Source: Fulvivirga imtechensis AK7
GTDB lineage: Bacteria > Bacteroidota > Bacteroidia > Cytophagales > Cyclobacteriaceae
Direction of reading: 5' to 3'
DNA: 59,551 bases
NCBI RefSeq assembly: GCF_000331535.1
Contig: NZ_AMZN01000111.1
Span: 1 to 59,551 of the forward strand
Part shown: positions 212 to 44,188 of the stretch, one piece after another
Layout: each line of letters begins with the position of its first letter
How positions within the stretch are numbered: position 1 is the first letter of the stretch
The notes under the pieces: generated by a model
The model's database searches: none
Told to the model about the DNA's origin: nothing
The model's input: the letters and a program-made list of their open reading frames with translations, nothing else
Translations under genes and position numbers: made by a program

Positions 212-255
212 CTGACAAAAGTCATTGCATGTACTATATTGGTGGATTACTTTTC
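212..255 (+). promoter_or_regulatory. Crp/Fnr-like operator 1 of 3 before sensor kinase
   Basis: CTGACaaaaGTCAT at 212-225. After 22 nt comes TACTTTTC (248-255), a 5/6 match to the TAAYTT box seen at the other sites. It is the most distal of three tandem copies before the kinase at 351. Confidence 0.5.
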
Positions 256-274
256 AGTTTTATCAGCGTTTCGG

Positions 275-318
275 ATGATGTAAATCATTGAATACTTGAT
301 GGGCGTCACATTATTTTG
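275..318 (+). promoter_or_regulatory. Crp/Fnr-like operator 2 of 3 before sensor kinase
   Basis: Perfect palindrome ATGATgtaaATCAT at 275-288. After 22 nt comes TTATTTTG (311-318), a 5/6 match to TAAYTT. The predicted transcription start near 322 leaves a leader of about 28 nt before ATG 351. Confidence 0.6.
296..309 (+). promoter_or_regulatory. Crp/Fnr-like operator 3 of 3 before sensor kinase
   Basis: TTGATgggcGTCAC at 296-309. The box at the standard 22-nt spacing (TGTTTTAT, 332-339) is a poor match. TATGTTTT at 330-337 is a slightly better -7 candidate. Confidence 0.4.
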
Positions 319-350
319 CGATATGGTCGTATGTTTTATGGTGATTGGGA

Positions 351-3010: not shown

Positions 3011-4003
3011 TTGATATTTTGCTTACAGCTTGAACCTCAAAGCTTACAGCTAAATAGGTCGGTAAACATGAATGGTTTCATGTACGCAAACTACTCTCCT
3101 CTTGGGAGGAGAAACAGAGGTGGGTAAAACTGATGTTTGATATATTTTGCTTAAATCTCAAAGCTTTGCAGCTACCCATGCTTCCGACTTCGGTCTTCTG
3201 ACTTCTGACTTCTGACTTCTTTTAGGGTCCTTTGCACGGAAAGCTTTAGTAAAGCAGCATTCGTAACTCACGACTCAAGATTGATATTTTGCTTACAGCT
3301 TGAACCTCAAAGCTTACAGCTAAATAGGTCGGTAAACATGAATGGTTTCATATACGCAAACTACTCTTCTCTTGGGAAGAGAAACAGAGGTGGGTAAAAA
3401 CTGATGTTTGATATATTTTGCTTGAACCTCAAAGCTTGCAGCTACCCATGCTTCCGACTTCGGTCTTCCGACTTCTGACTTCTGACTTCCGTCTTCTTTT
3501 AGGGTCCTTTGCACGGAAAGCTTTACTAGTCCTTATAGGCTTAGTAAAGCAGCATTAGCAACTCACGACTCAAGATTGATATTTTGCTTACAGCTTGAAG
3601 CTCAAAGCATACAGCTAAATAGGTCGGTTTTCATATACGCAAACTATTCTCCTCTTGGGAGGAGAAACAGAGGTGGGTAAAAACTGATGTTTGATATATT
3701 TTGCTTGAACCTCAAAGCTTTGCAGCTACCCGTGCTTCCGACTTCGGTCTTCTGACTTCCGTCTTCTTTTTGGTTACTTCCTTGCAAGGAAAGCTTTACT
3801 AGTCCTTATAGGCTTAGTAAAGCAGCGTTCGTAACTCACGACTCAAGATTGATATTTTGCTTAAATCTCAAAGCTTTGCAGCTACCCATGCTTCCGACTT
3901 CGGTCTTCTGACTTCTGACTTCTGACTTCCGTCTTCTTTTAGGGTCCTTTGCACGGAAAGCTTTACTAGTCCTTATAGGCTTAGTAAAGCAGCATACTCA
4001 CGA
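3011..4003. repeat. four tandem copies of a ~270-bp interspersed repeat
   Basis: Copies start at 3011, 3281, 3576 and 3849, each opening with TTGATATTTTGCTTA. Each full unit holds a CTCCTC-TTG-GGAGGAG hairpin, a second TTGATATATTTTGCTT motif, a TTCTGAC heptamer run and the 31-bp imperfect palindrome that begins GCTTTACTAGTCC and ends TAGTAAAGC. The first copy has a shortened palindrome. The fourth copy lacks the middle, as if the two internal TTGATAT(A)TTTTGCTT motifs had recombined. Inverted copies lie at 31746-32266. No convincing coding region is present in this 1-kb stretch. Confidence 0.9.
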
Positions 4004-5723: not shown

Positions 5724-6054
5724 AATCTTTTAGCGCAACCATTTTTGTTTTTCGTTGTCCCTGAATAAAGCCTGACAACCACTCTTCAGTTAGGGACTGA
5801 ATTTAATAACGACAATTGTTATGCCGAGGTACCTAACAACTGATAAATAAATCACTGACTTTCAGTGTATCGAAAAGCTTGATGATGACGCCCCGGAGCC
5901 ATCTCACCAAGACACTTTATCCATGAGCCAATATATCAAATGCAGATGATCAGAGTGATAATAGAAGTTGTTGAACGCGAAGATATTGGTCATAATTTAT
6001 CCTGGTATAAAAGATTTCGAAAGCATTAGAGTGAATAACAATCTCCATGGCAGA
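5724..6054. other. gene-free stretch upstream of GH13 gene
   Basis: No convincing coding region on either strand. It must hold the GH13 promoter. Two small palindromes are visible, ATAAC-gacaatt-GTTAT around 5806-5822 and CACTGActtTCAGTG at 5852-5866; either could be an operator, but this is not supported further. Confidence 0.5.
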
Positions 6055-6098
6055 TGATGGGCGTCATAGTAATCTCTTTCAGGTGGGTATAATTTGAC
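6055..6098 (+). promoter_or_regulatory. Crp/Fnr-like operator and -7 box, orphan or long-leader promoter
   Basis: ATGATgggcGTCAT at 6055-6068, then after exactly 22 nt TAATTTGA (6091-6098). The predicted start is near 6102. The next real gene (6360) is about 258 nt downstream and only trivial reading frames lie between, so this may drive a long leader or a small RNA. Confidence 0.65.
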
Positions 6099-6359: not shown

Positions 6360-7244
6360 ATGCACATGAGTCGAATAATTTTTGCTTTGCTTCTGGTGGT
6401 TTGCCTGGTTGGCAGCCATCACCTTCAGGCCCAGATTGTAACACCAGACCTGAGTCCGTTCGCCACTGTTACTCAAAAGATAGGCTTTAATGAGGTGAGG
6501 ATAGAGTACTCGCGCCCGAGTGTAAGAGGCCGGATTATATTTGGTGAACTTGTGCCGTATGGAGAGGTTTGGCGTATGGGAGCCAATGCTTCAACCAAGC
6601 TCTACATCAGGGAGCAACTGACTATCCAGGATCAGTACAAGCTTCCTCCGGGGGTTTATGGTATGTATGCTATACCTGATAAGGAGGAGTGGACAATAAT
6701 TCTCAGTCGCGAACCCTGGTTGTGGGGGGCCTTTGGTTATTCAGAGTCGTATGATGAAGTGAGATTTAAGGTGAAACCACAAACACTAAAAGAACAGATA
6801 GAGACCTTTACCATCCAGTTTGCAAACGTCTGTATGAACTGCGCGGAAATACAGCTTCTCTGGGATTTTACAAAAGTAGCTTTCAGCATCAGTACCAATG
6901 CTGATGAAAAGGTGGTGGCATCAATAAAATCTTTTACTAATAACCCTGAAAGCAAGCTGGCGGGAGAGTATTACCTGGCAGCCAAATACTACCTGGATAC
7001 CAATAAAGACCTGGATCAGGCCCTGATTTGGATCGACAAAGCGCTGCAATACGGTCCTGGCGCCTACTGGGTTACTCACACCAAGGCGGAGATATTGGCC
7101 AAAAAAGGTGATTACCCGGAAGCTATTAAAACAGCCAAACTTTCAAAAGAACAAGCGGAAGCCAAAGACGATCAGGATTATGTTAGGATAAATGAGAAAG
7201 AAATAGAAAAGTGGGAGAAACTGAAAAAAATGAAAAGGCAATAA
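6360..7244 (+). CDS. DUF2911 domain protein with TPR-like C-terminus
   Basis: Exported protein of 294 residues. An N-terminal signal peptide covers about residues 1-25 (hydrophobic FALLLVVCLVG, then a site after LQAQ). Residues about 28-170 form a DUF2911 domain, a beta-rich family common in Bacteroidetes (motifs VRIEYSRPSVRGR, GEVWRMGANAST and PPGVYGMYAIP). From about residue 195 the protein becomes helical with TPR-like repeats (AGEYYLAAKYYL, ALIWIDKALQYGPGAYWVTHTKA, GDYPEAIKTA). Molecular function is not established for the family; a periplasmic location is inferred. A regulon-type promoter at 6055-6098 points toward it, leaving a leader of about 255 nt. Confidence 0.85.
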   Translation: MHMSRIIFALLLVVCLVGSHHLQAQIVTPDLSPFATVTQKIGFNEVRIEYSRPSVRGRIIFGELVPYGEVWRMGANASTKLYIREQLTIQDQYKLPPGVYGMYAIPDKEEWTIILSREPWLWGAFGYSESYDEVRFKVKPQTLKEQIETFTIQFANVCMNCAEIQLLWDFTKVAFSISTNADEKVVASIKSFTNNPESKLAGEYYLAAKYYLDTNKDLDQALIWIDKALQYGPGAYWVTHTKAEILAKKGDYPEAIKTAKLSKEQAEAKDDQDYVRINEKEIEKWEKLKKMKRQ

Positions 7245-7300: not shown

Positions 7301-7344
7301 GTGACATTAATCATAAAAGTCAGCAGGCGTTGATCATTCTTTCA
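7301..7344 (+). promoter_or_regulatory. Crp/Fnr-like operator before ftsH
   Basis: GTGACattaATCAT at 7301-7314. The box at the standard 22-nt spacing (TTCTTTCA, 7337-7344) matches TAAYTT at only 4 of 6 positions, so this member is weaker than those at 2175, 9768, 11019 and 11911. Confidence 0.45.
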
Positions 7345-7383
7345 TCATCAAAATAGCGCCACCTTTATAAAAAAGCTAAAACT

Positions 7384-9312
7384 GTGGCAACGAAAAATCA
7401 ACAAAAACCGGAAATTCCAGGATCAGCGAAGGGGGCGTGGGTTATTCTGACATTGCTGGTCGTGTTCATTACCATCATATCGTTAGTCAGGTTTTTTCCT
7501 TCTCCCAAAGAGATCACGTGGCAAACTTTTGAAAAAGAGATGTTGGAAAGGAATGCCGTTGAAAAAATTGTGGTGATCAATAAGGAGATTGCACGTGTTT
7601 ATATAAAAGCGGAATTTGCTAACGATTCTGTGTTTAGCGATGATTTGAAATCTCCCTTGGGAGTAAACACCGGGCCTCACTATTCTTTTAACATCGGTTC
7701 TGTGGAAGCCTTTGAGCGAAAGTTGGAGGAAGCCCAAAGTGATTTACCTCCATATGAGCGGGTAAGCGTACGATACGAGGAAAAGCGGCATTGGAATGAA
7801 CTCATTTCATGGTTGATCCCTCTTGCACTTTTGTTTTTTCTTTTTCGCCTGTTTACCCGCGTACAGGGTGGCGGAACAGGCGGTACTTCTATTTTTAGTT
7901 TCGGAAGGTCAACAGCCAGGCTGCAGGAAAATGAGAACAAGAGTAATATTACTTTTGATCATGTAGCGGGTTTGGAGGAAGCCAAACAAGAGGTAAAGGA
8001 AATTGTGGACTTCTTAAAGAATCCTCAACATTACACTAAACTTGGCGCCAAGATCCCGAAAGGCGTTATGATCGTTGGGCCTCCGGGAACGGGCAAGACC
8101 CTCCTTGCAAAAGCGGTGGCCGGAGAGGCTCAGGTGCCATTCTTTTCCTTATCGGGTGCTGAATTCATAGAGATGTTTGTGGGTGTAGGGGCTTCACGTG
8201 TACGCGACCTTTTTAAAAGGGCGAAAGAGAAGGCGCCATGTATTGTATTTATTGATGAGATCGATGCCGTGGGAAGAACAAGGGGAAAGAATACATTTTA
8301 TTCCGGAGCCAATGATGAGCGTGAAAGTACACTCGATCAGTTGCTTACCGAAATGGACGGATTTGGGTCCAATACAGGAGTAATTGTACTTGCAGCTACC
8401 AACAGGGCGGATATACTTGATCCGGCCCTGCTACGTCCGGGCAGGTTTGACCGGCATATTTACCTGGAACTGCCCAACCTTTCCGAGCGTAAGGCGATTT
8501 TCACGGTACACCTGAAGCCCCTGGTTCTGGAAGAGAATATCGACCTGGATTTTCTCGCCTCGCAGACTCCTGGTTTTTCAGGTGCTGATATAGCCAATAT
8601 TTGTAACGAAGCGGCCCTGATAGCAGCACGTAAGAAGAAGGACAGGGTTGAAAAACAAGACTTTCTTGATGCTATGGACAGGATCATAGCCGGCTTGGAG
8701 AAGAAGAGCAAGATCATTTCTGCTGAAGAGAAGCAGATTATAGCCTATCATGAAGCGGGGCATGCGATCGTTAGCTGGTTATTACCGCAAATCGATCCGC
8801 TAATGAAAGTTTCGATCATTCCACGGGGGAAATCATTGGGTGCCGCATGGTATTTACCCGAGGAGCGGCAGATCATGAGGTATTCCCATTTTGCCGAGAG
8901 ACTTGCCGCAGCCCTTGCCGGCCGTGCCGCTGAAGAACTCGTTTTCGGTGAGGTATCGTCAGGCGCAGTTGACGACCTGGAAAAGGTCACCAAAGAGGCT
9001 TATGCTATTGTTGCATACTTTGGTTTTAACAAAAAGATAGGCAACATTAGCTTTTATGATTCCACTGGTCGCTCCGAGAGTAGTTTCCAAAAACCCTATA
9101 GCGAAGAAACAGCCAAAATGATAGACGAAGAAGTTCGGAAGTTGGTAGATGAAAGCTATGAACAGGCCAAAACAGTGCTTTCACAACACAAGAAGGAATT
9201 GGTGACCATCGCCGAACTGCTGCTAAAGAAAGAGGTGATCTATAAAGAGGAACTGGAGAAAATATTAGGCGTCCGCAACCAGGAACAGGAATTAAAACTA
9301 GTCGTAGTATAG
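7384..9312 (+). CDS. ftsH: ATP-dependent zinc metalloprotease FtsH
   Basis: Membrane-anchored AAA+ protease that unfolds and degrades membrane and regulatory proteins as a cytosol-facing hexamer. Residues about 17-37 form a first membrane helix, about 40-135 the extracytoplasmic domain, and about 139-157 a second helix. The AAA module has Walker A GPPGTGKT from residue 232, Walker [10 protein letters not shown] near 284-292 and the [22 protein letters not shown]. The peptidase module has the zinc motif HEAGH at 456-460 and a downstream Asp in [12 protein letters not shown]. Length (642) is usual. It starts at GTG 7384. A possible Crp/Fnr-like operator lies upstream. Its setting among stress genes suggests an accessory, stress-induced FtsH, but whether another copy exists elsewhere cannot be seen. 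Confidence 0.95.
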
Positions 9313-9394
9313 CTGGTAGCTGGTAGCTGGTAGCTGGTAGCTGGTAGCTGGTAGCTGGTCACTGGTTGTTGGTCACTGGTCATTGGTCATTGGT
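9310..9394. repeat. heptanucleotide repeat (TAGCTGG)7 with degenerate units
   Basis: Seven perfect TAGCTGG units start in the ftsH stop region. Degenerate 7-bp units ending in TGG follow in phase (TCACTGG, TTGTTGG, TCATTGG). The family consensus is the reverse complement of the CCAGTAN units at 68-178. Confidence 0.85.
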
Positions 9395-9402
9395 TTCTTG
9401 TA

Positions 9403-9767: not shown

Positions 9768-9811
9768 ATGATGTGTATCATCGACTTGTGGCTCATGCTC
9801 ATGTAACTTAC
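9768..9811 (+). promoter_or_regulatory. Crp/Fnr-like operator and -7 box before YtxH gene
   Basis: Perfect palindrome ATGATgtgtATCAT at 9768-9781, then after exactly 22 nt TAACTTAC (9804-9811). The predicted start near 9815 gives a leader of about 22 nt before ATG 9837. Confidence 0.75.
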
Positions 9812-9836: not shown

Positions 9837-10085
9837 ATGACTACTGGAAAAGCATTATTAGGCGTATTGGCAGGGATTGCCGCAGGCGCTGTGCTGGGAC
9901 TATTATTTGCTCCCGAAAAAGGATCTGACACGAGGAAAACGCTACTGAAAAAGGGTGAAGGCCTTGCAAGCGACCTGAACCATAAGATCGATGAGAAATT
10001 TCAGGAACTTATCGGTGCTGTTACCGGCAAGACCAAAAAACCTGTAGCGGAAAATGAAGTTGTTAAAAAAGAAAAAGTGAGTTAG
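9837..10085 (+). CDS. YtxH domain-containing small membrane protein
   Basis: Protein of 82 residues. The N-terminal part is one glycine-rich membrane helix (LLGVLAGIAAGAVLGLLFAP, residues about 6-25) followed directly by EKGSDTRK, the hallmark of the YtxH family. The remainder is a charged, amphipathic helical tail rich in Lys and Glu. YtxH proteins are linked to general stress in Firmicutes and Bacteroidetes, but the molecular role is not known. It is followed after 2 nt by the PEBP-like gene at 10088, so the two form an operon under the regulon-type promoter at 9768-9811. Confidence 0.85.
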   Translation: MTTGKALLGVLAGIAAGAVLGLLFAPEKGSDTRKTLLKKGEGLASDLNHKIDEKFQELIGAVTGKTKKPVAENEVVKKEKVS

Positions 10086-10087
10086 TA

Positions 10088-10561
10088 ATGTTGAAGCAAG
10101 AAACCCCAATCGATTATAAGGTGCTGGAGGTTTCGAGCAGGGCGTTTAGACCACATGGTGCTATTCCTGCAAAATACACATGTGAGGGGGACGATGTTAA
10201 CCCACCGTTAGATATCAAAGACATACCATCAGCGGCAAAAAGCCTTGTATTGATGGTTGAAGACCCCGATGCTCCGCGCGGAACCTGGCTGCACTGGCTT
10301 GTATGGAACATTCCGGTTACGCACCGGATAAGAGAGGATGATGTACCCGGGGATCAGGGATTAAATGATTTTGAGAGGGTTAATTATGGCGGACCATGTC
10401 CCCCGAGCGGCACACACCGGTATTTTTTTAAAGTGTATGCACTGGATTGCTTACTTGACCTTCCAAGAGGATCTACCAGGAAGGAAGTTGATGAAGCCAT
10501 GAGTAGTCATATCATAGCCTACGGAGATATAGTAGGGATATATAAAAAAAGGAATTTATAA
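10088..10561 (+). CDS. YbhB/YbcL family (PEBP-like) protein
   Basis: Protein of 157 residues in the phosphatidylethanolamine-binding / Raf kinase inhibitor-like fold. Diagnostic motifs are PAKYTCEGDDVNPPL (about 25-39), MVEDPDAPRGTWLHWLVWNI (about 56-75, holding the conserved DPDxP and HW anion-site residues) and GGPCPPSGTHRYFFKVYALD (about 98-117, with the GxxPPxGxHRY signature). No signal peptide is seen, so it is probably cytosolic. Bacterial members lack an agreed function. It is the second gene of the YtxH operon, whose promoter carries a perfect Crp/Fnr-like operator. A MITE-like element begins 3 bp after its stop codon. Confidence 0.92.
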   Translation: MLKQETPIDYKVLEVSSRAFRPHGAIPAKYTCEGDDVNPPLDIKDIPSAAKSLVLMVEDPDAPRGTWLHWLVWNIPVTHRIREDDVPGDQGLNDFERVNYGGPCPPSGTHRYFFKVYALDCLLDLPRGSTRKEVDEAMSSHIIAYGDIVGIYKKRNL

Positions 10562-10961: not shown

Positions 10962-11018
10962 TAAACATTAGCACCGGCTAGTCAATACATTGGTGATGAT
11001 TTCTCTCATACCACATGA

Positions 11019-11062
11019 AAGACCCAGGTCATTTATTTCTGTAAGGTACTCCGTTAACTTAG
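11019..11062 (+). promoter_or_regulatory. Crp/Fnr-like operator and -7 box before small membrane protein
   Basis: AAGACccagGTCAT at 11019-11032 (one half-site perfect, the other degenerate). After exactly 22 nt comes TAACTTAG (11055-11062). The predicted start near 11066 lies about 21 nt before ATG 11087. Confidence 0.65.
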
Positions 11063-11311: not shown

Positions 11312-11884
11312 ATGAAAGTACCCCGTGTGAAGCTACCGGGAGCCAGGGGGCAGGAAGAGATCACTCACGTCAGTTTGTGGATAGATACCTATGACGATAT
11401 ATTTTCAGGCTTTGACCCCAGGTCTTTTTCGGAGCGCGCGCTTTCTGACGATTTTATCATGCAGGTAAGGAAGGTTTCCAAAGAGATCAGAACGAAGATA
11501 TCAGTGCTGAAGTTGCTGGTCCCGGCAGGCACGCAGCATACGGAACATGAAAGAATGATCAGAAAACGTCTTCAGAATTACTTTTACAATATGTATCAGC
11601 AGTTGTATGAAGAATACCGGTCAGTGAAGGTAAGAGGAGTATACTTCACTATTTCCGGTCTTAGTCTGATGATCATCGCCAGCTACCTGTCTTACCTGAA
11701 TTTGGCCGATTTTTATACCAGTCTGTTGCTTGTATTATCCGAGCCTGGCGGGTGGTTCCTTTTCTGGACAGGCCTCGATCACCTGGTCACTTTCTCAAGA
11801 AGCCAGAAGAATGAAATGGACTTTTATACCAGGATGTCTAACGTGCATGTGGAGTTTGGCGCTTACGGAAGTGGTAGCCAGTAA
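11312..11884 (+). CDS. uncharacterised membrane protein with two C-terminal helices
   Basis: Protein of 190 residues that I do not recognise. Residues about 1-100 are soluble and charged (THVSLWIDTYDDIFSGFDPR near the start, then a helical stretch). Residues about 106-126 (YFTISGLSLMIIASYLSYL) and about 132-155 (SLLLVLSEPGGWFLFWTGLD) form two membrane segments, so both termini probably face the cytosol. It follows the 50-residue membrane protein and seems to share its promoter. It is followed by a new operator at 11911. Its place among stress-regulated genes is the only hint to its role. Confidence 0.75.
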   Translation: MKVPRVKLPGARGQEEITHVSLWIDTYDDIFSGFDPRSFSERALSDDFIMQVRKVSKEIRTKISVLKLLVPAGTQHTEHERMIRKRLQNYFYNMYQQLYEEYRSVKVRGVYFTISGLSLMIIASYLSYLNLADFYTSLLLVLSEPGGWFLFWTGLDHLVTFSRSQKNEMDFYTRMSNVHVEFGAYGSGSQ

Positions 11885-11910
11885 GGTAGGGCTACGATCA
11901 TCTACAATTG

Positions 11911-11954
11911 ATGACAGGGGTCATGGAACACCTTTTGTTTGTGCTATAACTTCA
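11911..11954 (+). promoter_or_regulatory. Crp/Fnr-like operator and -7 box before 11974 gene
   Basis: Perfect palindrome ATGACaggGGTCAT at 11911-11924, then after exactly 22 nt TAACTTCA (11947-11954). The predicted start near 11958 leaves a leader of about 16 nt before ATG 11974. Confidence 0.75.
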
Positions 11955-11973: not shown

Positions 11974-12705
11974 ATGTTTAGAATTGTACCAGTAGCGGGT
12001 TTAATTGTTGTACTAATATGCTCTCCTGCAGAGTCGCAGCATCTGGATGGTGGCTTTGGATACGGTTATTTCGGGGCTGCATGGAATATATCACCTGACA
12101 TTCAGCAAGATATTGAGAACCGGGCGTTTCTGGGTCCCGGGTTCAGCTTTGATCTGCCGGGCAGACTCCTTGGAGGTGGAGGATACGGCCTGTTCTATAA
12201 CAGGATGCTGCTTGGCGGCAGTGGTTTTGCTTATCGGATATCAGGCGCCACCAATCGGGGAGAGGCCACACTTTCTCAGGGAGGTGGTTTTGTTAATATA
12301 GGGTATATCACCCTGTTAAAAGATAACATATTTGGCTTTCCATATGTTGGGATAGGTGGGTATAGTATAAATTTGAGACTTAAAAATTATACCTCTGATG
12401 AATCATTTGAACTGGGAAACCAATTGGTAGAGCCGGGAGGATACATGGATCTAACTACACGAGGGATAAGTATCGAAGCCGGGTATTCTTTGAAATTCCT
12501 GACCTTTTCATTGGCGGGTCCGGGCAGTCGTGGAGGTTTTATGATTGGCGTACAGGTAGGAACCTTCATTTCAGCCTTCAACAGCGGCTGGAATGAGGAA
12601 AATACTGGCGATGAAATAGCAATGCTTTCGAAACCAGGTACGTTTGCTCCTTACCTGCGGGTCACGATTGGCGGTGGAGGTTTTCACTATGAGGGATCAG
12701 ATTAA
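11974..12705 (+). CDS. exported glycine-rich protein, probably beta-rich
   Basis: Protein of 243 residues, not assigned to a named family. A signal peptide is clear (residues about 1-21, VAGLIVVLICSPAESQ). The mature part is rich in Gly, Phe and Tyr with alternating hydrophobic residues (GGFGYGYFGAAW, GGGGYGLFYNRML, FPYVGIGGYSINLRL), consistent with a small beta-barrel or another periplasmic/outer-membrane beta protein. It is preceded by one of the best operator/-7 box pairs in the window. It is followed after 26 nt by the methyltransferase at 12732, so the two form an operon. Outer-membrane placement is inferred. Confidence 0.75.
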   Translation: MFRIVPVAGLIVVLICSPAESQHLDGGFGYGYFGAAWNISPDIQQDIENRAFLGPGFSFDLPGRLLGGGGYGLFYNRMLLGGSGFAYRISGATNRGEATLSQGGGFVNIGYITLLKDNIFGFPYVGIGGYSINLRLKNYTSDESFELGNQLVEPGGYMDLTTRGISIEAGYSLKFLTFSLAGPGSRGGFMIGVQVGTFISAFNSGWNEENTGDEIAMLSKPGTFAPYLRVTIGGGGFHYEGSD

Positions 12706-12731: not shown

Positions 12732-13637
12732 ATGGCTGAGCAAAAAGACCTGGATTATACTTACACCACCATTGATGAGATCTTTCGCTTGAGTATCGGA
12801 GAAATGGGAGATTTCAGCGGTGCGAAATACGATGGTAACTTCTCTATGTCACTGGAAGCAGCTCAGCAGGCGAAACATCGTTTTATGGCCGAAAGTCTGA
12901 AAATCAATGGCGGCAGCCGTATTTTGGATATGGGTTGCGGCTGGGGGCCCTTTATGCACTATGCCATACGGGAATATCGCGCAACCTGTGTTGGGCTCAC
13001 ACTGTCCCGGGGACAGGCCGCAGCCTGCCGGAAAAATGGGCTGGATGTATATGTCAGGGACTGCCGGTATGTTAAACCGGAAGATTTCGGAATGTTTGAC
13101 GCTATAGCCAGCGTGGGCGCCTTTGAACATTTTTGTTCAGTTGAGGACTGGAAAGCAGGCAGGCAGGAAGAGGTTTATCGCAACTTTTTTGAAACTGTAT
13201 ACCACCTGTTACCAAAGGCGGGAAGGTTGTATCTGCAAACGATGACTTTCGGCAAAAATATGATCGATTATGACGATATCGATATTAATGCCGAAAAGGG
13301 ATCTGCTGAATATGTCTGTGCACTTATGGTAAAAGAGTTTCCGGGCTCATGGCTGCCGTATGGGCTGGAGATGGTAGAAAGGAATGCTCAACCTTACTTC
13401 CGGCTGGTCTCCCAAAGCAACGGCAGGCTTGATTATATTGAAACTATAGGACAGTGGAGAAAGAGGTTCAGGAGGTTTCATCCCAGAAAATACTGGCTGT
13501 ATTTGTCATTACTCCCAAAATACGCCACAGATGAAGAGTTTCGTCATCGTGTGGCTATATTCAGGACCAGCCCCAACCGGATATGTTTTGAAAGAGAGAT
13601 CATGGACCATTACCGGCTGGTATTTGAGAAAGTTTAG
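12732..13637 (+). CDS. class I SAM methyltransferase, cyclopropane-fatty-acid-synthase-like
   Basis: Protein of 301 residues with a Rossmann SAM-binding core: motif I RILDMGCGWGP (about 59-69), then GLTLSRGQAAACR (about 87-99) and the acidic loop VGAFEHF (about 122-128). These match the cyclopropane-fatty-acyl-phospholipid synthase / mycolic acid methyltransferase family, which methylates or cyclopropanates lipid double bonds using S-adenosylmethionine. It is shorter than classical Cfa (about 380 residues) and lacks the N-terminal lipid-binding domain, so the substrate is uncertain. It is the second gene after 11974 under a regulon-type promoter. Membrane lipid remodelling under stress would fit the context. 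Confidence 0.8.
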   Translation: MAEQKDLDYTYTTIDEIFRLSIGEMGDFSGAKYDGNFSMSLEAAQQAKHRFMAESLKINGGSRILDMGCGWGPFMHYAIREYRATCVGLTLSRGQAAACRKNGLDVYVRDCRYVKPEDFGMFDAIASVGAFEHFCSVEDWKAGRQEEVYRNFFETVYHLLPKAGRLYLQTMTFGKNMIDYDDIDINAEKGSAEYVCALMVKEFPGSWLPYGLEMVERNAQPYFRLVSQSNGRLDYIETIGQWRKRFRRFHPRKYWLYLSLLPKYATDEEFRHRVAIFRTSPNRICFEREIMDHYRLVFEKV

Positions 13638-14548: not shown

Positions 14549-14978
14549 TAGTAATTTTCCCAAGGGATACAGGAAGTTTTCTTACAGACACTACTTAACG
14601 TGAGTTTGATATAGTAAACCGATTAAATTGTATTTGTATCCAAAAAATAACCTAAAAACCGCTTTTGTGATCATTCTGTCTGTCCCAAACCTGCCTAACT
14701 TGCCTCAGGGGGGCACGAAGAATCTTACTAAGTTCAAGGATACTACAACAACTTAGGAAGATCCTTCCTCACGTACCAATGAACAAGTTTTCATTACATG
14801 CTGATAGTCAGATGATAGTATCATATTGCTCAGTTTGTAACTTTTGTGTCTATTTTGACTTTCATAGCATATGTCTTACTTTTTTGTTCCCGAAAGCTTT
14901 AAAGCTCGGGATAACAAAAAAAGTCAAGGCTGTGAGCAAATAGCTAAATTTCAATGCCTGCGATGACAAATCACCACC
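14549..14978. repeat. repeat-rich intergenic stretch with solo MITE end and strong hairpin
   Basis: GTTTTCTTACAGACACTA at 14577-14594 is a solo family-A MITE end. 14671-14715 (TCATTCTGTCTGTCCCAAAC and on) matches 56451-56494. 14878-14924 is a long hairpin with arms ACTTTTTTGTTcCCGA and TCGGGatAACAAAAAAAGT. 14925-14978 is an inverted match of 49672-49725. No gene seen. Confidence 0.75.
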
Positions 14979-15123
14979 TAGTGTTTGTAAGAAAACTCTA
15001 AGAGGCTTTAAGAAAACGTTAAGGTCAAGGCTTGTGAAGTGCCAAAAAGCGGAGCGTACTTGGGTACGTGAGCATTTTTGGGAGGAGCATAACGCAGACA
15101 TTGGCGTTTTCTTAGAGACACTA
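14979..15123. mobile_element. MITE-like element, family A, 145 bp
   Basis: Terminal inverted repeats TAGTGTttgtAAGAAAAC (14979-14996) and GTTTTCTTagagACACTA (15106-15123). The inner part is homologous, in inverse orientation, to 34657-34804 (shared AAAACGCCAAT, CCGCTTTTTGG and ACGTTTTCTTAAAGCC). It ends 7 bp beyond the marR stop. Confidence 0.8.
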
Positions 15124-31745: not shown

Positions 31746-32266
31746 GTCGTGAGTATTGAGTACAAATGCTGCTTTACTAAGCCTATAAGGACTAGTAAAG
31801 CTTTCCGTGCAAAGGACCCTAAAAGAAGACGGAAGCCGGAAGTCAGAAGACCGAAGTCGGAAGCATGGGTAGTTGCAAGCTTTGAGATTTAAGCAAAATA
31901 TATCAAACATCAGTTTTTACCCACCTCTGTTTCTCCTCCCAAGAGGAGAGTAGTTTGCGTATATGAAACCATTCATGTTTACCGATCTATTTAGCTGCAT
32001 GCTTTGAGCTTCAAGCTGTAAGCAAAATATCAATCTTGAGTCGTGAGTTACGAATGCTGCTTTACTAAGCCTATAAGGACTAGTAAAGCTTTCCGTGCAA
32101 AGGACCCTAAAAGAAGTCGGAAGACGGAAGCCGGAAGTCAGAAGACCGAAGTCGGAAGCACGGGTAGCTGCAAAGCTTTGAGATTTAAGCAAAATATATC
32201 AAACATCAGTTTTTACCCACCTCTGTTCCTCCCAGAAGGAGAGTAGTTTGCGTATATGAACATATA
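31746..32266. repeat. two inverted copies of the ~270-bp interspersed repeat
   Basis: Copies at about 31746-32033 and 32034-32266, in the opposite orientation to those at 3011-4003. They contain GCTTTACTAAGCC...GACTAGTAAAGC, the GGAAGTCAGAAGACCGAAGT run and CTCTCCTCTTGGGAGGAG-type hairpins. This fills the 31706-32304 gap; no gene seen. Confidence 0.9.
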
Positions 32267-34466: not shown

Positions 34467-34480
34467 ATGATGCTTGTCAT
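34467..34480. promoter_or_regulatory. isolated Crp/Fnr-like palindrome between pncB and hybrid kinase
   Basis: ATGATgcttGTCAT. Neither strand has a TAAYTT-like box 22 nt away (TGTCGATC toward pncB, GACATTAC toward the kinase). It may be a silent match, or act by another geometry. The rest of this gap up to the MITE has no gene. Confidence 0.35.
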
Positions 34481-34656: not shown

Positions 34657-34804
34657 TAGTGTCTTTTAGAAAACGCCAATATCCGTGTTACGCTCGTTCC
34701 AAAATGCTTTCGTGCTTCAGTACGTTCCGCTTTTTGGAACTTCGTCCCGCTGTTTGGGCGGGAACGTTTTCTTAAAGCCACTTAGAGGTTTCTTACAAAC
34801 GCTA
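34657..34804. mobile_element. MITE-like element, family A, 148 bp
   Basis: The left end TAGTGTcttttAGAAAACGCC and right end GGTTTCTTACAAACGCTA form terminal inverted repeats. The inner part holds GGGCGGGAACGTTTTCTTAA and matches 14979-15123 (inverted) and 10565-10680. It ends 15 bp before ATG 34820, so any extension of the kinase frame to 34685 would be translated from this element. Confidence 0.8.
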
Positions 34805-38346: not shown

Positions 38347-38372
38347 AAATATGATAAGGATTTTCTCTCTTG

Positions 38373-38416
38373 ATGAGAGGCGTCATTTATCAGTGGGGTG
38401 CAAGGTCCTAATTTGT
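38373..38416 (+). promoter_or_regulatory. Crp/Fnr-like operator and -7 box before exopolysaccharide operon
   Basis: ATGAGaggcGTCAT at 38373-38386 (one half-site perfect, the other 4/5). After exactly 22 nt comes TAATTTGT (38409-38416). The predicted start near 38420 gives a leader of about 30 nt before ATG 38451. Confidence 0.65.
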
Positions 38417-38450
38417 CATCAATTTATTGACGGAGAAAACAGACTTTGCT

Positions 38451-39218
38451 ATGGTACTAAAATACCCCCTCTACGCTATATTGCTAATATCTTTGACGTC
38501 TTGTTACTACAACAAGAACATGATCTACCTACAGGATGAAAGCTTTTCAGGTCAGAGAGCCAAGCTCGTTCAGAATCAAAAAAAGCCTTACAGGATACAG
38601 CCCAATGACATCATTTCCGTAAAGGTAAAAAGCGCCAGCAACACCGAACTATCAGATATTTTTAATGTAAGTCCATACATGGGGCCGGTGTTTATAGCCC
38701 CCGGTAATTTATACCTGGAAGGATATTCAGTGAATGATGAGGGACAAATTACGCTACCAGTAATAGGCACCGTGACAGTAAAGGGATTGACACTGGAAGA
38801 GGTACAGCAGATGATACAGGGCAATGCCCAGCAATATCTTAATAACGCTACTGTAATTGTAAAGCTGCTCAGCTTCAAAATTACCGTATTGGGCGAAGTT
38901 AAGAACCCAGGGTATCATTATGTTTTCAACAACCAGGTAACCATACTGGAGGCCTTAGGACTGGCAGGGGATCTGACACAGTTCGGCAACAGGAAAAATA
39001 TTAAACTGATCCGGCAGCATCCGGAGGGAAACCAGGTAGTACTGGTAGACCTTACGGACCCGAAGATATTGCAGTCAGAGTATTTTTATCTGATGCCCAA
39101 TGACGTGCTTTATGTAGAGCCGCTCAAGGCAACGGTAAAGCGTACCAATCTCGATCTCCTTAGTTTACTTTTTTCCGCTGCCACTACCACCATCTTGATT
39201 TTGAGTTACATAGAGTGA
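38451..39218 (+). CDS. polysaccharide export outer-membrane lipoprotein (Wza-like, SLBB)
   Basis: Outer-membrane export protein of 255 residues. ATG 38451 begins a lipoprotein signal (LYAILLISLTSC, Cys about 18). The Poly_export domain is seen at about 45-130 (YRIQPNDIISVKVKS, GYSVNDEGQITLPVIGTVTV). An SLBB-type domain follows (KITVLGEVKNPGYHYVFNNQ, LEALGLAGDLT), and a short hydrophobic helix ends the chain (LLSLLFSAATTTILILSYI). It forms the periplasm-to-surface channel for exported exopolysaccharide together with the Wzc-type protein that starts 6 nt downstream. It is first in the operon and directly follows the operator at 38373. Confidence 0.92.
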   Translation: MVLKYPLYAILLISLTSCYYNKNMIYLQDESFSGQRAKLVQNQKKPYRIQPNDIISVKVKSASNTELSDIFNVSPYMGPVFIAPGNLYLEGYSVNDEGQITLPVIGTVTVKGLTLEEVQQMIQGNAQQYLNNATVIVKLLSFKITVLGEVKNPGYHYVFNNQVTILEALGLAGDLTQFGNRKNIKLIRQHPEGNQVVLVDLTDPKILQSEYFYLMPNDVLYVEPLKATVKRTNLDLLSLLFSAATTTILILSYIE

Positions 39219-39224
39219 TTAATT

Positions 39225-41549
39225 ATGAATGACAAGATCAATATCAAAGGAATTGTACTCTACCTGTTGTCGAAGTGGCATTACTTCGTTTTTGCGGCCA
39301 TATTTCTGCTGCCTGGCGCCTACTTATACACCAAGTACGCTACAAAGGTCTACCTGGTGAAAGCTTCAATACTGCTGAAGAGCGAACGCAAAAACGATCT
39401 GGGAGGTAAGGAATTTTTGAGAGGAATGGGGCTATTCACTTCGGATACCGAACTGGAAGACGAGATAGGGATATTAAAATCCTACGGCATGGTGAGCAAC
39501 GCAATAAGATCGCTGGATTTCGGTATTTCTTACTTTTCAAAGGAATCATTTAGGGCTGAAGAGAAATATGGAGATTTTCCCTTTATAGTGGAGCTTGACT
39601 CCACCATCAGTCAGATGATCGATGTACCTGTTTATATAGAACCGCTGCCGGGTGGCAGTTACCGTATTGAGGCTGTCGGCCGGGATGTCGATGTCTATAA
39701 CTTCCTTACCAACCGAACGGAAGATACCTTTGATGAAATCAACCTCAGGGAGGTCGTGGAGGCCGGAAAACCTTTTAGAACACACAGCCTGGCCTTTACT
39801 ATCAGACCTAATGAGCTTTATGCTCCAAAAGAAAATACAAGGTATTATTTTGTTATACACGACTTAAGCGAGGTTATCGAAACTTACCAAACGGAGCTGG
39901 AAGTGTACCCAATTTCAAGGGAATCGAATATTGTGGAGCTAAGTATGCGTGGAAGCGTACCTCATAAAACGGCCCGTTTCCTTGATCAATTGCTTCATAT
40001 ATACCTTCAAAACGAACTGCACAAGAAAAACCAGTTGGGAGTGAAGACCATCCAGTTTATTGATAGCCAGCTTAGCGGTGTTTCGGATTCTTTGAAAAGG
40101 GTAGAGGGGTGGTTGGAAAATTTTCGTGCGAAGAGCAATATCCAGGATATTAGTTATACCGCGGAAAACCTGAGTAAAAACCTGGACCGGCTTGAATCGG
40201 AAAAGGCTGACCTGCAGGTGAAGCTCAAGTACTACACTTACATATCGGAATCCCTGGCGGAGGGCAGGTTTGGTGATGTAGTGGCCCCGTCTACTTTTGG
40301 ACTGGAGGACCCTTTGCTAAGTAGTCTTCTCATAGAGCTTTCGAAGCTGAACCAGGAGCGTGCAGGGCTAAACTATAATGCCAAAGAGCAGAATCCTGTA
40401 ACCGAAGTGGTGGACCGCAGGATCAGGAATACAAAAAATACTTTGCAGGAAAATGTACAGAATATCATTAATGTCACCACTATTGCCCTGAATGATCTGG
40501 ATCAGCGGATATTAAGAATAAGGAGAGAATTCAGCCGGTTGCCAGCCAATGAAAGAGAGCTCGTAAATATTCAGCGCAAGTTCGATTTTAGCGATAATGT
40601 ATACAATTACCTGCTGGAGAAGCGGGCTGAGGCAGGCATTGCCATTGCCTCCAATACTGTAGAAAAAACCATTGTGGACCGGGCAAAAGTAATTGGCAAC
40701 AGACCTGTATTGCCAAATAATAAACTGGTTTACCTGATTGCTTTATTTCTAACACTGGCACTTCCGATCGGATTTGTAGTGTTGAAAGACTTTTGGAATG
40801 ATCACCTGGTATCGAGAGAAGATATAGTGAAAGCTACAGAGATACCTTTTATAGGCACCATTATCCATGGTAGCAAACAGGAAAAAGAGCAGGTGGTTTC
40901 CGAAAAAAGAACACCCCTTACAGAATCCTTTCAATCTTTGAGAGTTAACCTGCAGTACCTGACACTGGGAAAGGAAAAGAATGTTATAGGATTTACCTCT
41001 TCATTAGAGAGTGAGGGAAAAACGTTCTGTGCGGTTAATCTGGCATCTACCATAGCGCAATCCGGCAAGAAAACTATCCTGATCGATGCTGATATGAGGA
41101 GGTCCGGTATGTCACCTTATTTTAACATCAAAAATACTCGTGGACTTTCCAACTATCTTGTCAAGAGCTGTAGCCTTGAGGAGATCATTCATGCCACCCA
41201 GATCAAGGGTTTTCACATTATTAATTCCGGTCCTACTCCACCTAACCCCCTCAACCTGATCGGCCTGCCACAGATGGACCAATTGATAGAGGATCTCAGA
41301 CAGTTGTACGACACTGTTATTATAGATGCTCCGCCCATCGGCTACGTAGCTGAGTATATTATTCTAATGCGCCATACCGATGCCAATATTTACGTAGTAA
41401 GGTCAAGCTACACCAGCAGGTACCACCTGTCTAAAATCAATAACCTCTATAAGGAACAGAAGATCAGGAATGTAAGCATTCTGTTAAATGACGTCAGAAC
41501 CGGGCTCAACGGATATAGCTATACCTATGGCGCAGCATACCAGTCATAA
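39225..41549 (+). CDS. wzc: Wzc-type polysaccharide co-polymerase with tyrosine kinase domain
   Basis: Inner-membrane protein of 774 residues that controls chain length and export of the polysaccharide. A Wzz domain has a first membrane helix at about 16-34 (YFVFAAIFLLPGAYLYT), a long periplasmic coiled-coil region (about 60-480) and a second helix at about 500-520 (LVYLIALFLTLALPIGF). The cytosolic BY-kinase domain contains a Walker A-like loop SSLESEGKTF (about 590-600), Walker A' ILIDADMRRSG (about 622-632) and VIIDAPPIGY (Walker B). The C-terminus has the tyrosine cluster YSYTYGAAY for autophosphorylation. Its end overlaps the flippase gene start. Complete and typical of the family. Confidence 0.93.
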   Translation: MNDKINIKGIVLYLLSKWHYFVFAAIFLLPGAYLYTKYATKVYLVKASILLKSERKNDLGGKEFLRGMGLFTSDTELEDEIGILKSYGMVSNAIRSLDFGISYFSKESFRAEEKYGDFPFIVELDSTISQMIDVPVYIEPLPGGSYRIEAVGRDVDVYNFLTNRTEDTFDEINLREVVEAGKPFRTHSLAFTIRPNELYAPKENTRYYFVIHDLSEVIETYQTELEVYPISRESNIVELSMRGSVPHKTARFLDQLLHIYLQNELHKKNQLGVKTIQFIDSQLSGVSDSLKRVEGWLENFRAKSNIQDISYTAENLSKNLDRLESEKADLQVKLKYYTYISESLAEGRFGDVVAPSTFGLEDPLLSSLLIELSKLNQERAGLNYNAKEQNPVTEVVDRRIRNTKNTLQENVQNIINVTTIALNDLDQRILRIRREFSRLPANERELVNIQRKFDFSDNVYNYLLEKRAEAGIAIASNTVEKTIVDRAKVIGNRPVLPNNKLVYLIALFLTLALPIGFVVLKDFWNDHLVSREDIVKATEIPFIGTIIHGSKQEKEQVVSEKRTPLTESFQSLRVNLQYLTLGKEKNVIGFTSSLESEGKTFCAVNLASTIAQSGKKTILIDADMRRSGMSPYFNIKNTRGLSNYLVKSCSLEEIIHATQIKGFHIINSGPTPPNPLNLIGLPQMDQLIEDLRQLYDTVIIDAPPIGYVAEYIILMRHTDANIYVVRSSYTSRYHLSKINNLYKEQKIRNVSILLNDVRTGLNGYSYTYGAAYQS

Positions 41550-42867
41550 GGCCAGGTTTGAAATGCTCCTGCAATGGATCCCGGAACGTTTTCATAAGTA
41601 TTTTCAAAATGTTTCCTGGCTGCTCTTTGAAAAGGTCTTTACCCTTTTCGTGGCCATGGTGGTGGGTATCTATATCGCCAGGTACCTGCAGCCTGAGCAA
41701 TACGGCCTTTTAAATTATGCCATCAGCTTTGTAGGTATATTTTCTGCATTCGCAACGCTGGGGCTAGACCAGATCATCGTACGTGAGCTGGCTAAAGATA
41801 TGGATCAGAAGCACGATCTGTTGGGAACCAGCTTCATACTAAAGCTGGCAGGGTCGTTGGTGCTGCTTGCGGTCCTTTCCGGGGTGCTGATATTCATGCA
41901 GAATGAAAGGTTTACAGCTATTCTTATCGTCATCATTGCCACTGCCGAGATCTTTAAGGCATTCGAAATTGTAAATTGTTTCTTTCAGGCCAAAGTACTC
42001 TCCAAGTATGTGGTTAAAGTCCAGTTGCTTGTAAATATGGGGAGCAGCCTGGCCAAGATCGTGATGGTCTATTATCAGGCGCCACTGATCTGGTTTGCCT
42101 GGGTTATCCTCGTTGCTGCCGTGATGAATGCCCTTGGATATGCTTACATCTACAAGAAGAAAGAGGGCACGCTACTAAAATGGAGCTTCAATAAAACGCT
42201 GGCAATAAGCCTTCTTAATGAAGCCTGGCCGCTTACGTTGTATGGCATTGCCCTGCACACCCAGGCCCGGATTGATCAGGTGATGCTGGGTAAGATGCTG
42301 AATAACTATGAGGTTGGGCAGTACTCTGTAGCGCTGAAGATCATAGAGATATTCGGGTTTATCCCTATGGTGGTCATGAATACTTTTACCCCGGCCATTA
42401 CCAAGGCGAAAAAGATGAGCAACGAGCTCTACGACAGCCGGCTGCTAAACTTTTACCGGTTAATGTTCCTGCTGTTCATTATTGTGGCTATTCCCCTGTA
42501 TTTTCTGGCAGATGGGATCATTGTCTTCCTTTACGGAGCTGAATATCAGGCGGCAGGAGTGCTTCTTTCCTTATTTGCGATCAGGTTGTTTTTTACAAAC
42601 ATGGGTGTGGGTAAGTCAGTCTTTATCGTTAATGAGAGCTTATTTAAATATTCTTTGGTAGCCACTATTATTGGGGCATCTATCAACATAGCCGTCAATT
42701 ACTGGCTGATACCTATCTATGCCTCTACAGGCGCGATTATAGCTACTATTGTTTCTTTTACCATAAGCATTTTCGTGCTCGATCTCTTTTTTGCCGATAC
42801 AAGGAGAAACCAGAAGCTCATTTTTAAGGGCATTTTCTCGTTCTGGAAGTTAAATCATGTTACGTGA
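41527..42867 (+). CDS. polysaccharide flippase (Wzx-like, MATE/MOP family)
   Basis: Inner-membrane flippase predicted to move lipid-linked repeat units across the membrane. It is about 446 residues with 12-14 hydrophobic segments, starting with VSWLLFEKVFTLFVAMVVG and YGLLNYAISFVGIFSAF and the family motif LGLDQIIVRELA. The start is uncertain: ATG 41527 overlaps the wzc end by 23 bp, while ATG 41563 lies just after the wzc stop with a purine-rich AGGCCAGG region; either fits. It overlaps the next gene by 11 bp. Together with the polymerase at 46106 it defines a Wzx/Wzy-dependent pathway. Confidence 0.9.
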   Translation: MAQHTSHKARFEMLLQWIPERFHKYFQNVSWLLFEKVFTLFVAMVVGIYIARYLQPEQYGLLNYAISFVGIFSAFATLGLDQIIVRELAKDMDQKHDLLGTSFILKLAGSLVLLAVLSGVLIFMQNERFTAILIVIIATAEIFKAFEIVNCFFQAKVLSKYVVKVQLLVNMGSSLAKIVMVYYQAPLIWFAWVILVAAVMNALGYAYIYKKKEGTLLKWSFNKTLAISLLNEAWPLTLYGIALHTQARIDQVMLGKMLNNYEVGQYSVALKIIEIFGFIPMVVMNTFTPAITKAKKMSNELYDSRLLNFYRLMFLLFIIVAIPLYFLADGIIVFLYGAEYQAAGVLLSLFAIRLFFTNMGVGKSVFIVNESLFKYSLVATIIGASINIAVNYWLIPIYASTGAIIATIVSFTISIFVLDLFFADTRRNQKLIFKGIFSFWKLNHVT

Positions 42868-44122
42868 CGAATGGCCTATGATAGCGTTAAAACCACAACC
42901 AGATTTTGATTTCCGTTGCCCTCGCTGCCATGCTCAGATACAGGCAACAGTGGAGGAAGTAAAAATAGGCGGTATGCACTCTTATATCGACTGCACATGC
43001 AGGCATTGCGGGTTTCCTTTTTACCAGATGCTGCCTGTCGGACATCATGTGGAGGTGCCTTTTACAGTAGCAGTAGACGATGGGGAGATTTATCATGGCC
43101 ATAAGGATTATAAATGGCTGGAAGAAGTGGTGAAGCAGTCATTTCCACTCGCAGGGCAGGAAGTATCTATCGAGAAGCGAATTTTCAAAGCACACAATGA
43201 TGTAGTCATTTTAAATACACTCGACTTTTTATACGGACATTCACTACTCAAGCTCTACAATGCCCAGCACCACCTGGACCGCAATCCTTCAACGGGGCTT
43301 GTCCTCATTATATCTAAAGCGTTCGAATGGATGATCCCGGCCGGATGTGCGGAAGCATGGATAGTAGATCTTAAACTGGGGGAGCTGAGAAAAGGCTACA
43401 CCGCTATTGCGGAATTTGTGTCTGCGCAGCTTCAGAGGTTTGACAGAGTCTATCTAAGCTATGCCTACTCGCACCCTGATTTTACCAGAGTAGACATAGC
43501 CCGCTATACGGGGGTAGAGCCCTTCCGCATCGAAAATTTCACCCACACTACACCGCGTATAACCTTTGTGCTCCGTGAGGATCGCTGGTGGCATCCACAC
43601 CGGGCCGATTACTGGTTTTACAGGGCTTGCCGAAAATCAGGCTGGCTGAAGGTGGGAGGGAAGTTGCTCTCAATGCGGCAGAAGCAGTTGGTAGAAAGTA
43701 CGATCAGGTATGTTAAAAACGAGCTTACCGAAGCAGAATTTTTTATTGTCGGGTTTGGAACCACAGGTAACTTTAATGGGAATACTCATGACAGGCGTGT
43801 GAACAGCCTCAACGGAGATATTGAAAGAGAGTGGTGTAAAATATACAGCAAAAGTCATGTGGTAGTGGGTTTTCATGGCTCCAATATGCTGTTACCCACT
43901 GCTTTTGCAGCAGGCTGTGTCGAAATACTTCCTGAAGACCGGTTCGGAAATATGGTTCAGGATATATCAGTGCGCTATCACGACAGGCAGCAACTGTTTT
44001 TCTACCGGTTTGCCGACCAGTACACGCAGCCTTCCCGAGTTGCCGGTAAGATCGTGGCAATGATCAGAGACTATGAGAGTTATCATCGGAATATGTGTAA
44101 GCATGTGTACACCTCCACCTGA
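42857..44122 (+). CDS. zinc-ribbon protein with GT61-like C-terminal part
   Basis: Protein of 421 residues, only partly recognised. The N-terminal 65 residues carry a zinc ribbon with two Cys pairs (FRCPRCHAQ and CTCRHCGFP). The C-terminal half ends with VVVGFHGSNMLLPTAFAAGCVEILP (about 335-359 region), which is reminiscent of the GpHGA...E motif of GT61/DUF563 capsular glycosyltransferases. The middle has HPDFTRVDIARYTGVEPFRI. A glycosyltransferase role is therefore possible; the zinc ribbon is odd for that group and could mark a recruiting or regulatory module. It overlaps the flippase by 11 bp, so it is cotranslated within the polysaccharide operon. Function unproven. Confidence 0.7.
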   Translation: MLRDEWPMIALKPQPDFDFRCPRCHAQIQATVEEVKIGGMHSYIDCTCRHCGFPFYQMLPVGHHVEVPFTVAVDDGEIYHGHKDYKWLEEVVKQSFPLAGQEVSIEKRIFKAHNDVVILNTLDFLYGHSLLKLYNAQHHLDRNPSTGLVLIISKAFEWMIPAGCAEAWIVDLKLGELRKGYTAIAEFVSAQLQRFDRVYLSYAYSHPDFTRVDIARYTGVEPFRIENFTHTTPRITFVLREDRWWHPHRADYWFYRACRKSGWLKVGGKLLSMRQKQLVESTIRYVKNELTEAEFFIVGFGTTGNFNGNTHDRRVNSLNGDIEREWCKIYSKSHVVVGFHGSNMLLPTAFAAGCVEILPEDRFGNMVQDISVRYHDRQQLFFYRFADQYTQPSRVAGKIVAMIRDYESYHRNMCKHVYTST

Positions 44123-44144
44123 TGATAGAGATCAAGTGCCTTTA

Positions 44145-44188
44145 ATGATGAGCATCATGGATAAATTAAATACAGGAAGTGAATTTTA
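44145..44188 (+). promoter_or_regulatory. Crp/Fnr-like operator before first glycosyltransferase
   Basis: Perfect palindrome ATGATgagcATCAT at 44145-44158. After 22 nt comes GAATTTTA (44181-44188), a 5/6 match to TAAYTT. It would give an internal promoter starting near 44192, 13 nt before ATG 44205. Confidence 0.55.

Follow-up and report, generated by a model that had tools for sequence, protein, structure and literature searches.

The 59,551-nucleotide stretch analysed here (the window) is contig C111 (NZ_AMZN01000111.1) of Fulvivirga imtechensis AK7, whose genome comprises 6.7 Mb in 225 contigs. Upstream of a sensor kinase gene, of stress-related genes and of an exopolysaccharide gene block, it carries palindromes of the form RTGAY-N4-RTCAY, many of which are followed at a fixed distance by a box resembling the −7 element of Bacteroidota promoters. 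These sites are probably class II Crp/Fnr operators of a low-oxygen and energy-stress regulon of Bacteroidia, and the likeliest main reader of the window genes would be REC-Crp, a Crp-type response regulator encoded elsewhere in the genome. Genes were called mechanically as longest open reading frames (ORFs), and names that do not come from a Pfam or NCBIfam scan were given by eye.

All operators and genes described in this and the following paragraph lie on the forward strand. The first operator (212–225, one mismatch; −7 box TACTTT at 248–253) and a close pair (275–288, exact, and 296–309, one mismatch, 21 bp apart), whose −7 box TATTTT (312–317) lies 23 nt from the 275 copy, precede a CHASE3-PAS-HisKA-HATPase sensor histidine kinase gene (345–2111). 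An exact operator at 2175–2188, with a weak partner upstream (2152–2165, three mismatches) and a TAACTT box at 2211–2216, stands before a phosphoribosyltransferase ORF (2215–2943). The true start of this gene is probably near 2287, where the alignment of a homologue begins; three perfect 18-base repeats (2235–2288) lie between the −7 box and this likely start. The operator at 6054–6067 (TAATTT, 6090–6095) has as its next same-strand gene one for a DUF2911 protein (6360–7244), and a tandem arrangement at 7301–7365, made up of an exact operator (7301–7314), a half-site (7324–7337, three mismatches) and a −7-like CACCTT (7360–7365), precedes an FtsH-family protease gene (7384–9312).

The operator at 9768–9781 (TAACTT, 9804–9809) is followed by a YtxH-like gene (9837–10085) and a PEBP gene (10088–10561). 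Tandem operators at 10996–11009 and 11019–11032, with one mismatch each and 23 bp apart (TAACTT, 11055–11060), are followed by a gene without a Pfam match (11312–11884). Downstream of an exact operator at 11911–11924 (partner 11888–11901, two mismatches, 23 bp; TAACTT, 11947–11952) lie another gene without a Pfam match (11974–12705) and a gene for a CFA-like methyltransferase (12732–13637). The operator at 38373–38386 (one mismatch; partner 38351–38364, two mismatches, 22 bp; TAATTT, 38409–38414) heads the exopolysaccharide genes (38427–49509), which include those of a Poly_export/Wza-like protein (38427), a Wzc-like protein (39225), a flippase (41488) and a GT2 glycosyltransferase (47412). 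Within this block, gene 46106 has a Wzy_C match below the Pfam cut-off, genes 42857 and 44205 have no Pfam match, and genes 45126 and 48253 fell outside the scan; a second tandem (44122–44135, one mismatch, and 44145–44158, exact) is followed by a −7-like GAATTT (44181–44186). Tandem partners lie 21–23 bp away at several window operators.

The original prediction held that the palindrome is followed by TAACTT or TAATTT after exactly 22 nt at six sites, and this is the case at all six; its site list stands with small corrections, as the copy given at 6055 starts at 6054 and those at 11019 (AAGAC..) and 38373 (ATGAG..) each depart from the consensus by one base. Among the weaker boxes that it placed at the same spacing, GAATTT is indeed found behind the 44145 copy, the 275 copy is more likely served by TATTTT at 23 nt, and 7301 has no box at 22 nt: that palindrome appears instead to be the upstream operator of a tandem, in which the half-site at 7324–7337 is followed, after 22 nt, by CACCTT. 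The argument that so rigid a spacing is hard to obtain by chance was borne out, since six window sites share the 22-nt spacing, whereas in 100 Markov shuffles (operator with at most one mismatch plus TAAYTT, spacings 5–45) the maximum at any one spacing was two, reached in 4 of the 100. The palindrome RTGAY-N4-RTCAY itself occurs eight times in the window against 0.96 expected, a count reached by none of 100 shuffles. It might be suspected that a loose motif has clustered by chance in a single window, the motif being short and degenerate and two of the six sites one base off; this is contradicted by the shuffles and by the genome-wide spacing peak, reversed-pattern controls and other loci described below, and was rejected, on the shuffles and reversed-pattern controls, as extremely improbable.

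Across the whole F. imtechensis genome, pairing TGAYN4RTCA with TAAYTT over 31 spacings gave 42 pairs (reversed pattern, 23), 11 of them at 22 nt, a peak with a Poisson p of 1.4e-8 against the other 30 spacings. With the spacing fixed at 22 nt and one mismatch allowed, the pattern matches 51 times and its reversed form 15 times. TA..TT is retained in many of the variants, and the matches that lie inside long ORFs are probably due to chance. Such a scan had been proposed as the test of the original prediction, and the excess over the control is found both here and in the 73 genomes of the class that were surveyed (214 strict matches, 23 reversed). Sites concentrate in the window and on contigs C31, C36, C122, C29 and C21. 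The C31 cluster includes genes for Hsp20, BON and universal stress proteins, pyruvate phosphate dikinase, a kinase and REC-Crp; the C36 sites are associated with exopolysaccharide genes and YtxH, C122 with a universal stress protein gene, and operators on C21 lie upstream of an FNR-like gene. YtxH homologues on C36 and in G014, a genome of the same genus, are also preceded by an operator.

The genome has 22 cNMP_binding matches, and 21 of the proteins were read. By eye, a Glu-xxx-Arg recognition helix is present in 10 of the 21, and the fuller string GTATE[ST]xxR in three: the stand-alone FNR-like protein on C21, whose recognition helix is nearly that of REC-Crp, and two receiver-bearing proteins on C29 and C31. 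Both of the latter consist of an N-terminal Response_reg domain (PF00072), cNMP_binding and HTH_Crp_2; the C31 protein, of 352 residues, is REC-Crp, and that on C29 is its paralogue. A scan with the C31 protein returned 562 candidate stretches, some of which may be relatives by one domain only; the best 80, all matching over nearly the full length, were kept, and among these the nearest relative is that of Fulvivirga kasyanovii (85% identical). Asp10, Asp53 and Lys105 and the helix residues Glu317 and Arg321 are invariant in all 82 aligned REC-Crp sequences, and at 69 of the 80 loci a histidine kinase gene, whose product in F. imtechensis has HisKA and HATPase_c, lies directly upstream on the same strand. 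With a receiver domain that keeps its phospho-acceptor Asp53 and an adjoining kinase gene, REC-Crp has the make-up of a response regulator.

Alignment of REC-Crp with Escherichia coli CRP and FNR bears on what it might sense. Glu72 and Arg82 of CRP contact cAMP; the first position holds Glu in none of the 82 REC-Crp sequences (Tyr in 62) and the second Arg in only one (Tyr in 67). Control by cAMP is therefore unlikely. FNR binds its cluster through Cys20, Cys23, Cys29 and Cys122. REC-Crp has the receiver domain where the first three lie, and a cysteine at the 122 position in only 10 of 82 sequences. The stand-alone FNR-like protein likewise departs from the FNR set, having C-x2-C and the Cys122 position without Cys29. 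Five cysteines keep their relative positions between this type of protein in F. imtechensis (L091:9047–9763) and in genome G260 (L246:1208–1888), and may be cluster ligands arranged in a non-classical way. Near the C21 FNR-like gene lies a second, short one (L091:15347–15760) that has C-x2-C-x5-C and no DNA-binding part. In the recognition helix, FNR Glu209 and Arg213 (CRP Glu181 and Arg185) are kept in all 82 REC-Crp sequences, as they are in CRP and many Crp-type proteins, and the position of CRP Gly184 and FNR Ser212 is occupied by Ile in 68 sequences and by Asn in 11. Identity of the helix was dropped as proof of the reader, the Glu-xxx-Arg pattern being so common.

The 80 REC-Crp loci (1.21 Mb) are interrelated, and counts taken from them are not independent. 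They contain 117 exact palindromes; counted on both strands the figure is 234, whereas five Markov controls gave 26–52 and the reversed pattern 42. All but 11 of the palindromes (106) are intergenic, intergenic DNA making up 13% of the sequence, and 60 of the loci have at least one. Measured from the REC-Crp start, density peaks at 1–2 kb on both sides, with 0.30 per kb upstream and 0.21 downstream. Of 1356 genes called in 93 sources, 174 have a palindrome no more than 350 nt upstream; some of the names having been given by eye, the commonest families by source are kinases (28), universal stress proteins (17) and glutamyl-tRNA reductase (11, mostly from one genus), followed by CBS-domain proteins (5), Crp-type regulators (5) and FixG-like proteins (4). 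Small, probably helical proteins also recur beside operators (L083:9548–9988, L084:18490–18903, L095:7441–7749 and 16068–16511, L257), including in a genome of another family; the two that were scanned had no Pfam match.

At these loci TAnnTT boxes are most frequent 22 nt (20 cases) and 44 nt (25) from the palindrome, where the mean count per spacing is 2.3. The 44-nt peak arises because a second operator lies 22–23 bp from the first: partners with at most two mismatches occur 40 times at an offset of 22 bp and 18 times at 23 bp, whereas other offsets between 10 and 60 give 0–5. Smaller TAnnTT peaks occur at 23, 45, 46 and 79 nt (8, 7, 8 and 8 cases). A profile was built from 82 aligned sites, taken from the 80 loci and six stretches of the F. 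imtechensis genome and selected for an operator with at most one mismatch and TA..TT at 22 nt. Its unselected positions show T at −6 (0.62) and G at −5 (0.44), completing a −7 box TAnnTTTG; the 22-nt spacer is nearly free in sequence, there is no −33 element, with T-richness at −33 and −32 weak, and the TGA and TCA of a second operator are visible at −69 and −58. Mapping in Flavobacterium psychrophilum puts the −7 box at −12 to −5 (PMC9723704), and this numbering was adopted. Relative to a predicted box so placed, the operator is centred at −41.5 and the upstream operator at −63.5.

The operator geometry is almost certainly real, and the sites are supported, on their sequence, as class II activator operators of the Crp/Fnr superfamily with the form ATGAY-N4-RTCAT. 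That such an operator would replace the −33 element, as originally proposed, agrees with the profile and with the spacing peaks of both the F. imtechensis genome and the 80 loci. Since activation is read from the position of the operator, the palindrome might instead overlap the promoter as the binding site of a repressor or of some non-Crp protein. A centre at −41.5, the lack of a −33 element and a rigid spacing across a free spacer form the pattern of class II activation, and TGA-N6-TCA is the spacing of the Crp/Fnr superfamily, both of which make a repressor or non-Crp site very improbable.

The window genes themselves are tied to REC-Crp by their neighbourhood in related genomes. In F. kasyanovii a single block holds stress genes, REC-Crp and homologues of the window's CHASE3 kinase (55% identical), phosphoribosyltransferase (61%) and FtsH (72%), each with an operator at 22 or 23 nt (23 nt before the FtsH homologue); in F. 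imtechensis this type of block is split between C31 and C111. REC-Crp, kinase and phosphoribosyltransferase genes stand together with operators also in G008 and G014, both of the window's genus, and G014 adds YtxH; in all three genomes the CHASE3 kinase homologue comes directly after REC-Crp. Elsewhere, an operator and −7 box precede the phosphoribosyltransferase gene at 6 of 12 other loci, three of them, at least 59% identical, having exact operators and three having operators with one mismatch; the remaining six of the 12, among them a paralogue in F. imtechensis, have no operator plus box.

The original prediction joined stress genes to exopolysaccharide genes, and this link stands in a narrow form. 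The operator and spacing of the Wza-like gene are kept in G008 (86% identical protein), where the CFA-like methyltransferase gene and the Wza operon adjoin; the tandem at 44122 and 44145 is kept there too, its GAATTT again at 22 nt. A sugar transferase gene on C36 of F. imtechensis has an operator, and so has one that immediately follows REC-Crp in Chryseolinea; their products are 59% identical. No Wza operator was found at the other 20 of the 21 loci tested (eight further loci lay outside the test), so, at 1 of 21, wide conservation of this operator is not supported. The link to exopolysaccharide is real among close relatives and is not general.

The phylum was surveyed in 296 genomes, 73 of the class Bacteroidia and 223 others, REC-Crp being scored as a nearly full-length match with E below 1e-60; count tables were transcribed by hand into the statistics scripts. 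REC-Crp is present in at least 43 of the 73 Bacteroidia genomes and in none of the 223 others, although in most genomes only the best seven candidates were scored and REC-Crp may have been missed. Outside the class the strict pattern occurs 66 times (control 15; summed by hand). A search with variable spacing in 58 relatives, counted by hand for the named genomes, gave a clear 22-nt peak in G023 (9 of 41) and G015 (6 of the 31 listed, out of 36). Within family f25, the mean number of strict sites is 7.8 in the 15 genomes with REC-Crp and 2.8 in the 14 without it (p 0.0018, a comparison chosen post hoc).

Genes downstream of f25 sites were inspected in two genomes with REC-Crp (G190, 13 of 21 sites; G159, 12 of 18) and three without it (G256, 6 of 6; G260, 5 of 5; G311, 5 of 6), ten names coming from Pfam or NCBIfam scans and the rest being given by eye. 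In the former they include genes for universal stress proteins, pyruvate phosphate dikinase and pyruvate:ferredoxin oxidoreductase, and hemN; in the latter hemN, nirK and genes for FixS/CcoS, NiFe hydrogenase, phosphate acetyltransferase (pta), a universal stress protein and an FNR-like protein. Other targets have no obvious link to oxygen, for example genes read by eye as those of a TonB-like, a peptidase-like and a TPR protein, and one site is intragenic. Because targets of low-oxygen type such as hemN and nirK stand alongside genes without such a link, oxygen or redox state is a probable common signal of the regulon, not a certain one. REC-Crp, the tandem operators behind the 44-nt peak and the low-oxygen targets in other genomes had all been overlooked in the original prediction.

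Several observations weigh against REC-Crp as the reader, or against the spacing rule. Across the class the number of strict sites does not depend significantly on REC-Crp (mean 3.72 in 43 genomes with it, 1.80 in 30 without; p 0.21), and 8 of the 43 REC-Crp genomes have no strict site. By hand count, the 22-nt peak is weak or absent in order-level relatives (G039, 2 of 22; G055, 1 of 25; G036, G044 and G056, 0 of 31). The same geometry is found in front of hemN, ccoS, nirK, pta and an FNR-like gene in Flavobacteriaceae that lack REC-Crp. Exact palindromes are missing from 20 of the 80 REC-Crp loci, and further rises in density (0.17 and 0.19 per kb) are seen some 4 and 8 kb upstream of the REC-Crp start. 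In F. imtechensis, REC-Crp lies on another contig than the window, and its Glu-xxx-Arg helix is unspecific, being common in this genome and shared by CRP and FNR. An exact palindrome at 34467–34480 of the window (no strand assigned), absent from the site list of the original prediction, has no −7 box at the expected spacings.

As genomes without REC-Crp keep the geometry, REC-Crp was rejected as the sole reader. The same fact favours another Crp-type protein as reader of the window sites, either the C21 FNR-like protein or, for example, a 199-residue protein on C29, with REC-Crp binding elsewhere or at some sites only; so do the near identity of the FNR-like and REC-Crp helices, the frequency of Glu-xxx-Arg helices in the genome, and the operators upstream of the FNR-like gene both here and in G260. 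Against this stand the window's kinase and phosphoribosyltransferase genes as neighbours of REC-Crp in three Fulvivirga-type genomes, the density of palindromes around REC-Crp at the 80 loci compared with one palindrome in 41 kb at 15 other Crp-type loci of F. imtechensis, and the larger number of sites in f25 genomes that have REC-Crp. On balance a different reader appears unlikely, and REC-Crp is probably the main reader in the window.

In the mechanism proposed, the histidine kinase would phosphorylate the receiver domain of REC-Crp, whose FNR-like C-terminal module would then bind one or two operators and recruit RNA polymerase from a fixed distance, the operator standing in for the −33 element. 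Many promoters would add a second operator 22–23 bp, or two helical turns, upstream, and the stand-alone FNR-like protein on C21 would probably read the same or overlapping sites. This account draws on features read from sequence: the geometry and enrichment of the sites, the spacing of tandem operators, the genes next to REC-Crp, its domain architecture and its conserved receiver residues. From these we infer that the regulators bind, that they activate rather than repress, that phosphorylation exerts control, that the signal is oxygen or redox state, and how the sites are divided among the regulators. A bolder and tentative proposal, given somewhat less than even odds, makes REC-Crp the master regulator of a DosR-like survival programme that spans the class, one protein doing the work of FixJ and FixK free of cAMP and iron–sulfur sensing. 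The paired operators at −41.5 and −63.5 would be shared with FNR-like sensors, phosphorylation and direct redox signals would meet on one DNA element, and exopolysaccharide would be switched on in some lineages.

Among other features, the window has no RNA family at gathering score. Arrays of 7-base tandem repeats (CCAGTAC, CTTCTGA, TAGCTGG, TTAACAA and variants) lie between genes at 68–178, 3181–3937, 9310–9395, 31824–32163 and 52209–52312. By eye, similar translated fragments (NVFLKPL.. / MSALC.SQKC) recur in spurious or over-extended ORFs (window 14862–15101 and the ORF start at 34685; L088:3009; L089:13716), which suggests an interspersed intergenic repeat.

Bacteroidota have unusual −7 promoters and, to our knowledge, little is known of how these are activated. 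No description of a receiver–Crp response regulator of Bacteroidota, or of this operator, was found in the open-access literature searched. The sites give a defined activator–promoter geometry, together with a list of stress and low-oxygen genes that lends itself to testing. They also point to a candidate regulator of unusual architecture, present in at least 43 of the 73 Bacteroidia genomes sampled.

Among known systems, class II promoters of FNR and other Crp/Fnr proteins in Proteobacteria share with these sites the TGA-N6-TCA palindrome, a centre at −41.5 and the conserved Glu209 and Arg213 of E. coli FNR, and FNR regulons share class targets such as hemN, FixS/CcoS, nirK and NiFe hydrogenase. 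The FNR half-site is TTGAT, whereas that found here is ATGAY, and FNR Ser212 is replaced by Ile or Asn in 79 of 82 REC-Crp sequences. Unlike proteobacterial FNR promoters, those described here have a Bacteroidota −7 box without a −33 element and tandem operators 22–23 bp apart, and of the three regulators favoured here two are response regulators. REC-Crp resembles E. coli CRP in its cNMP_binding and HTH_Crp_2 domains and in the conserved helix residues Glu181 and Arg185, and differs from it in lacking the cAMP-contact residues Glu72 and Arg82. The FixL–FixJ–FixK cascade consists of a kinase, a response regulator and an FNR-like activator of cbb3-type genes; the same elements recur here, but with the receiver and the FNR-like DNA-binding module in one protein. 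DosR-type regulators are of the NarL type, and neither a NarL-type regulator nor a GC-rich 16-nt operator is found in the present system. The DosR/DevR and OsdR dormancy regulons of Actinobacteria (PMC5069765) likewise place a two-component system beside genes for universal stress proteins and pyruvate phosphate dikinase under a low-oxygen theme, with a 16-nt operator of the AGGGCCGATCGGCCCT type, whereas the regulator here has a Crp output. The resemblance is one of analogy and not of kinship, gene content alone being similar: comparison with the actinobacterial dormancy regulon sets similar genes under a regulator of a different kind.

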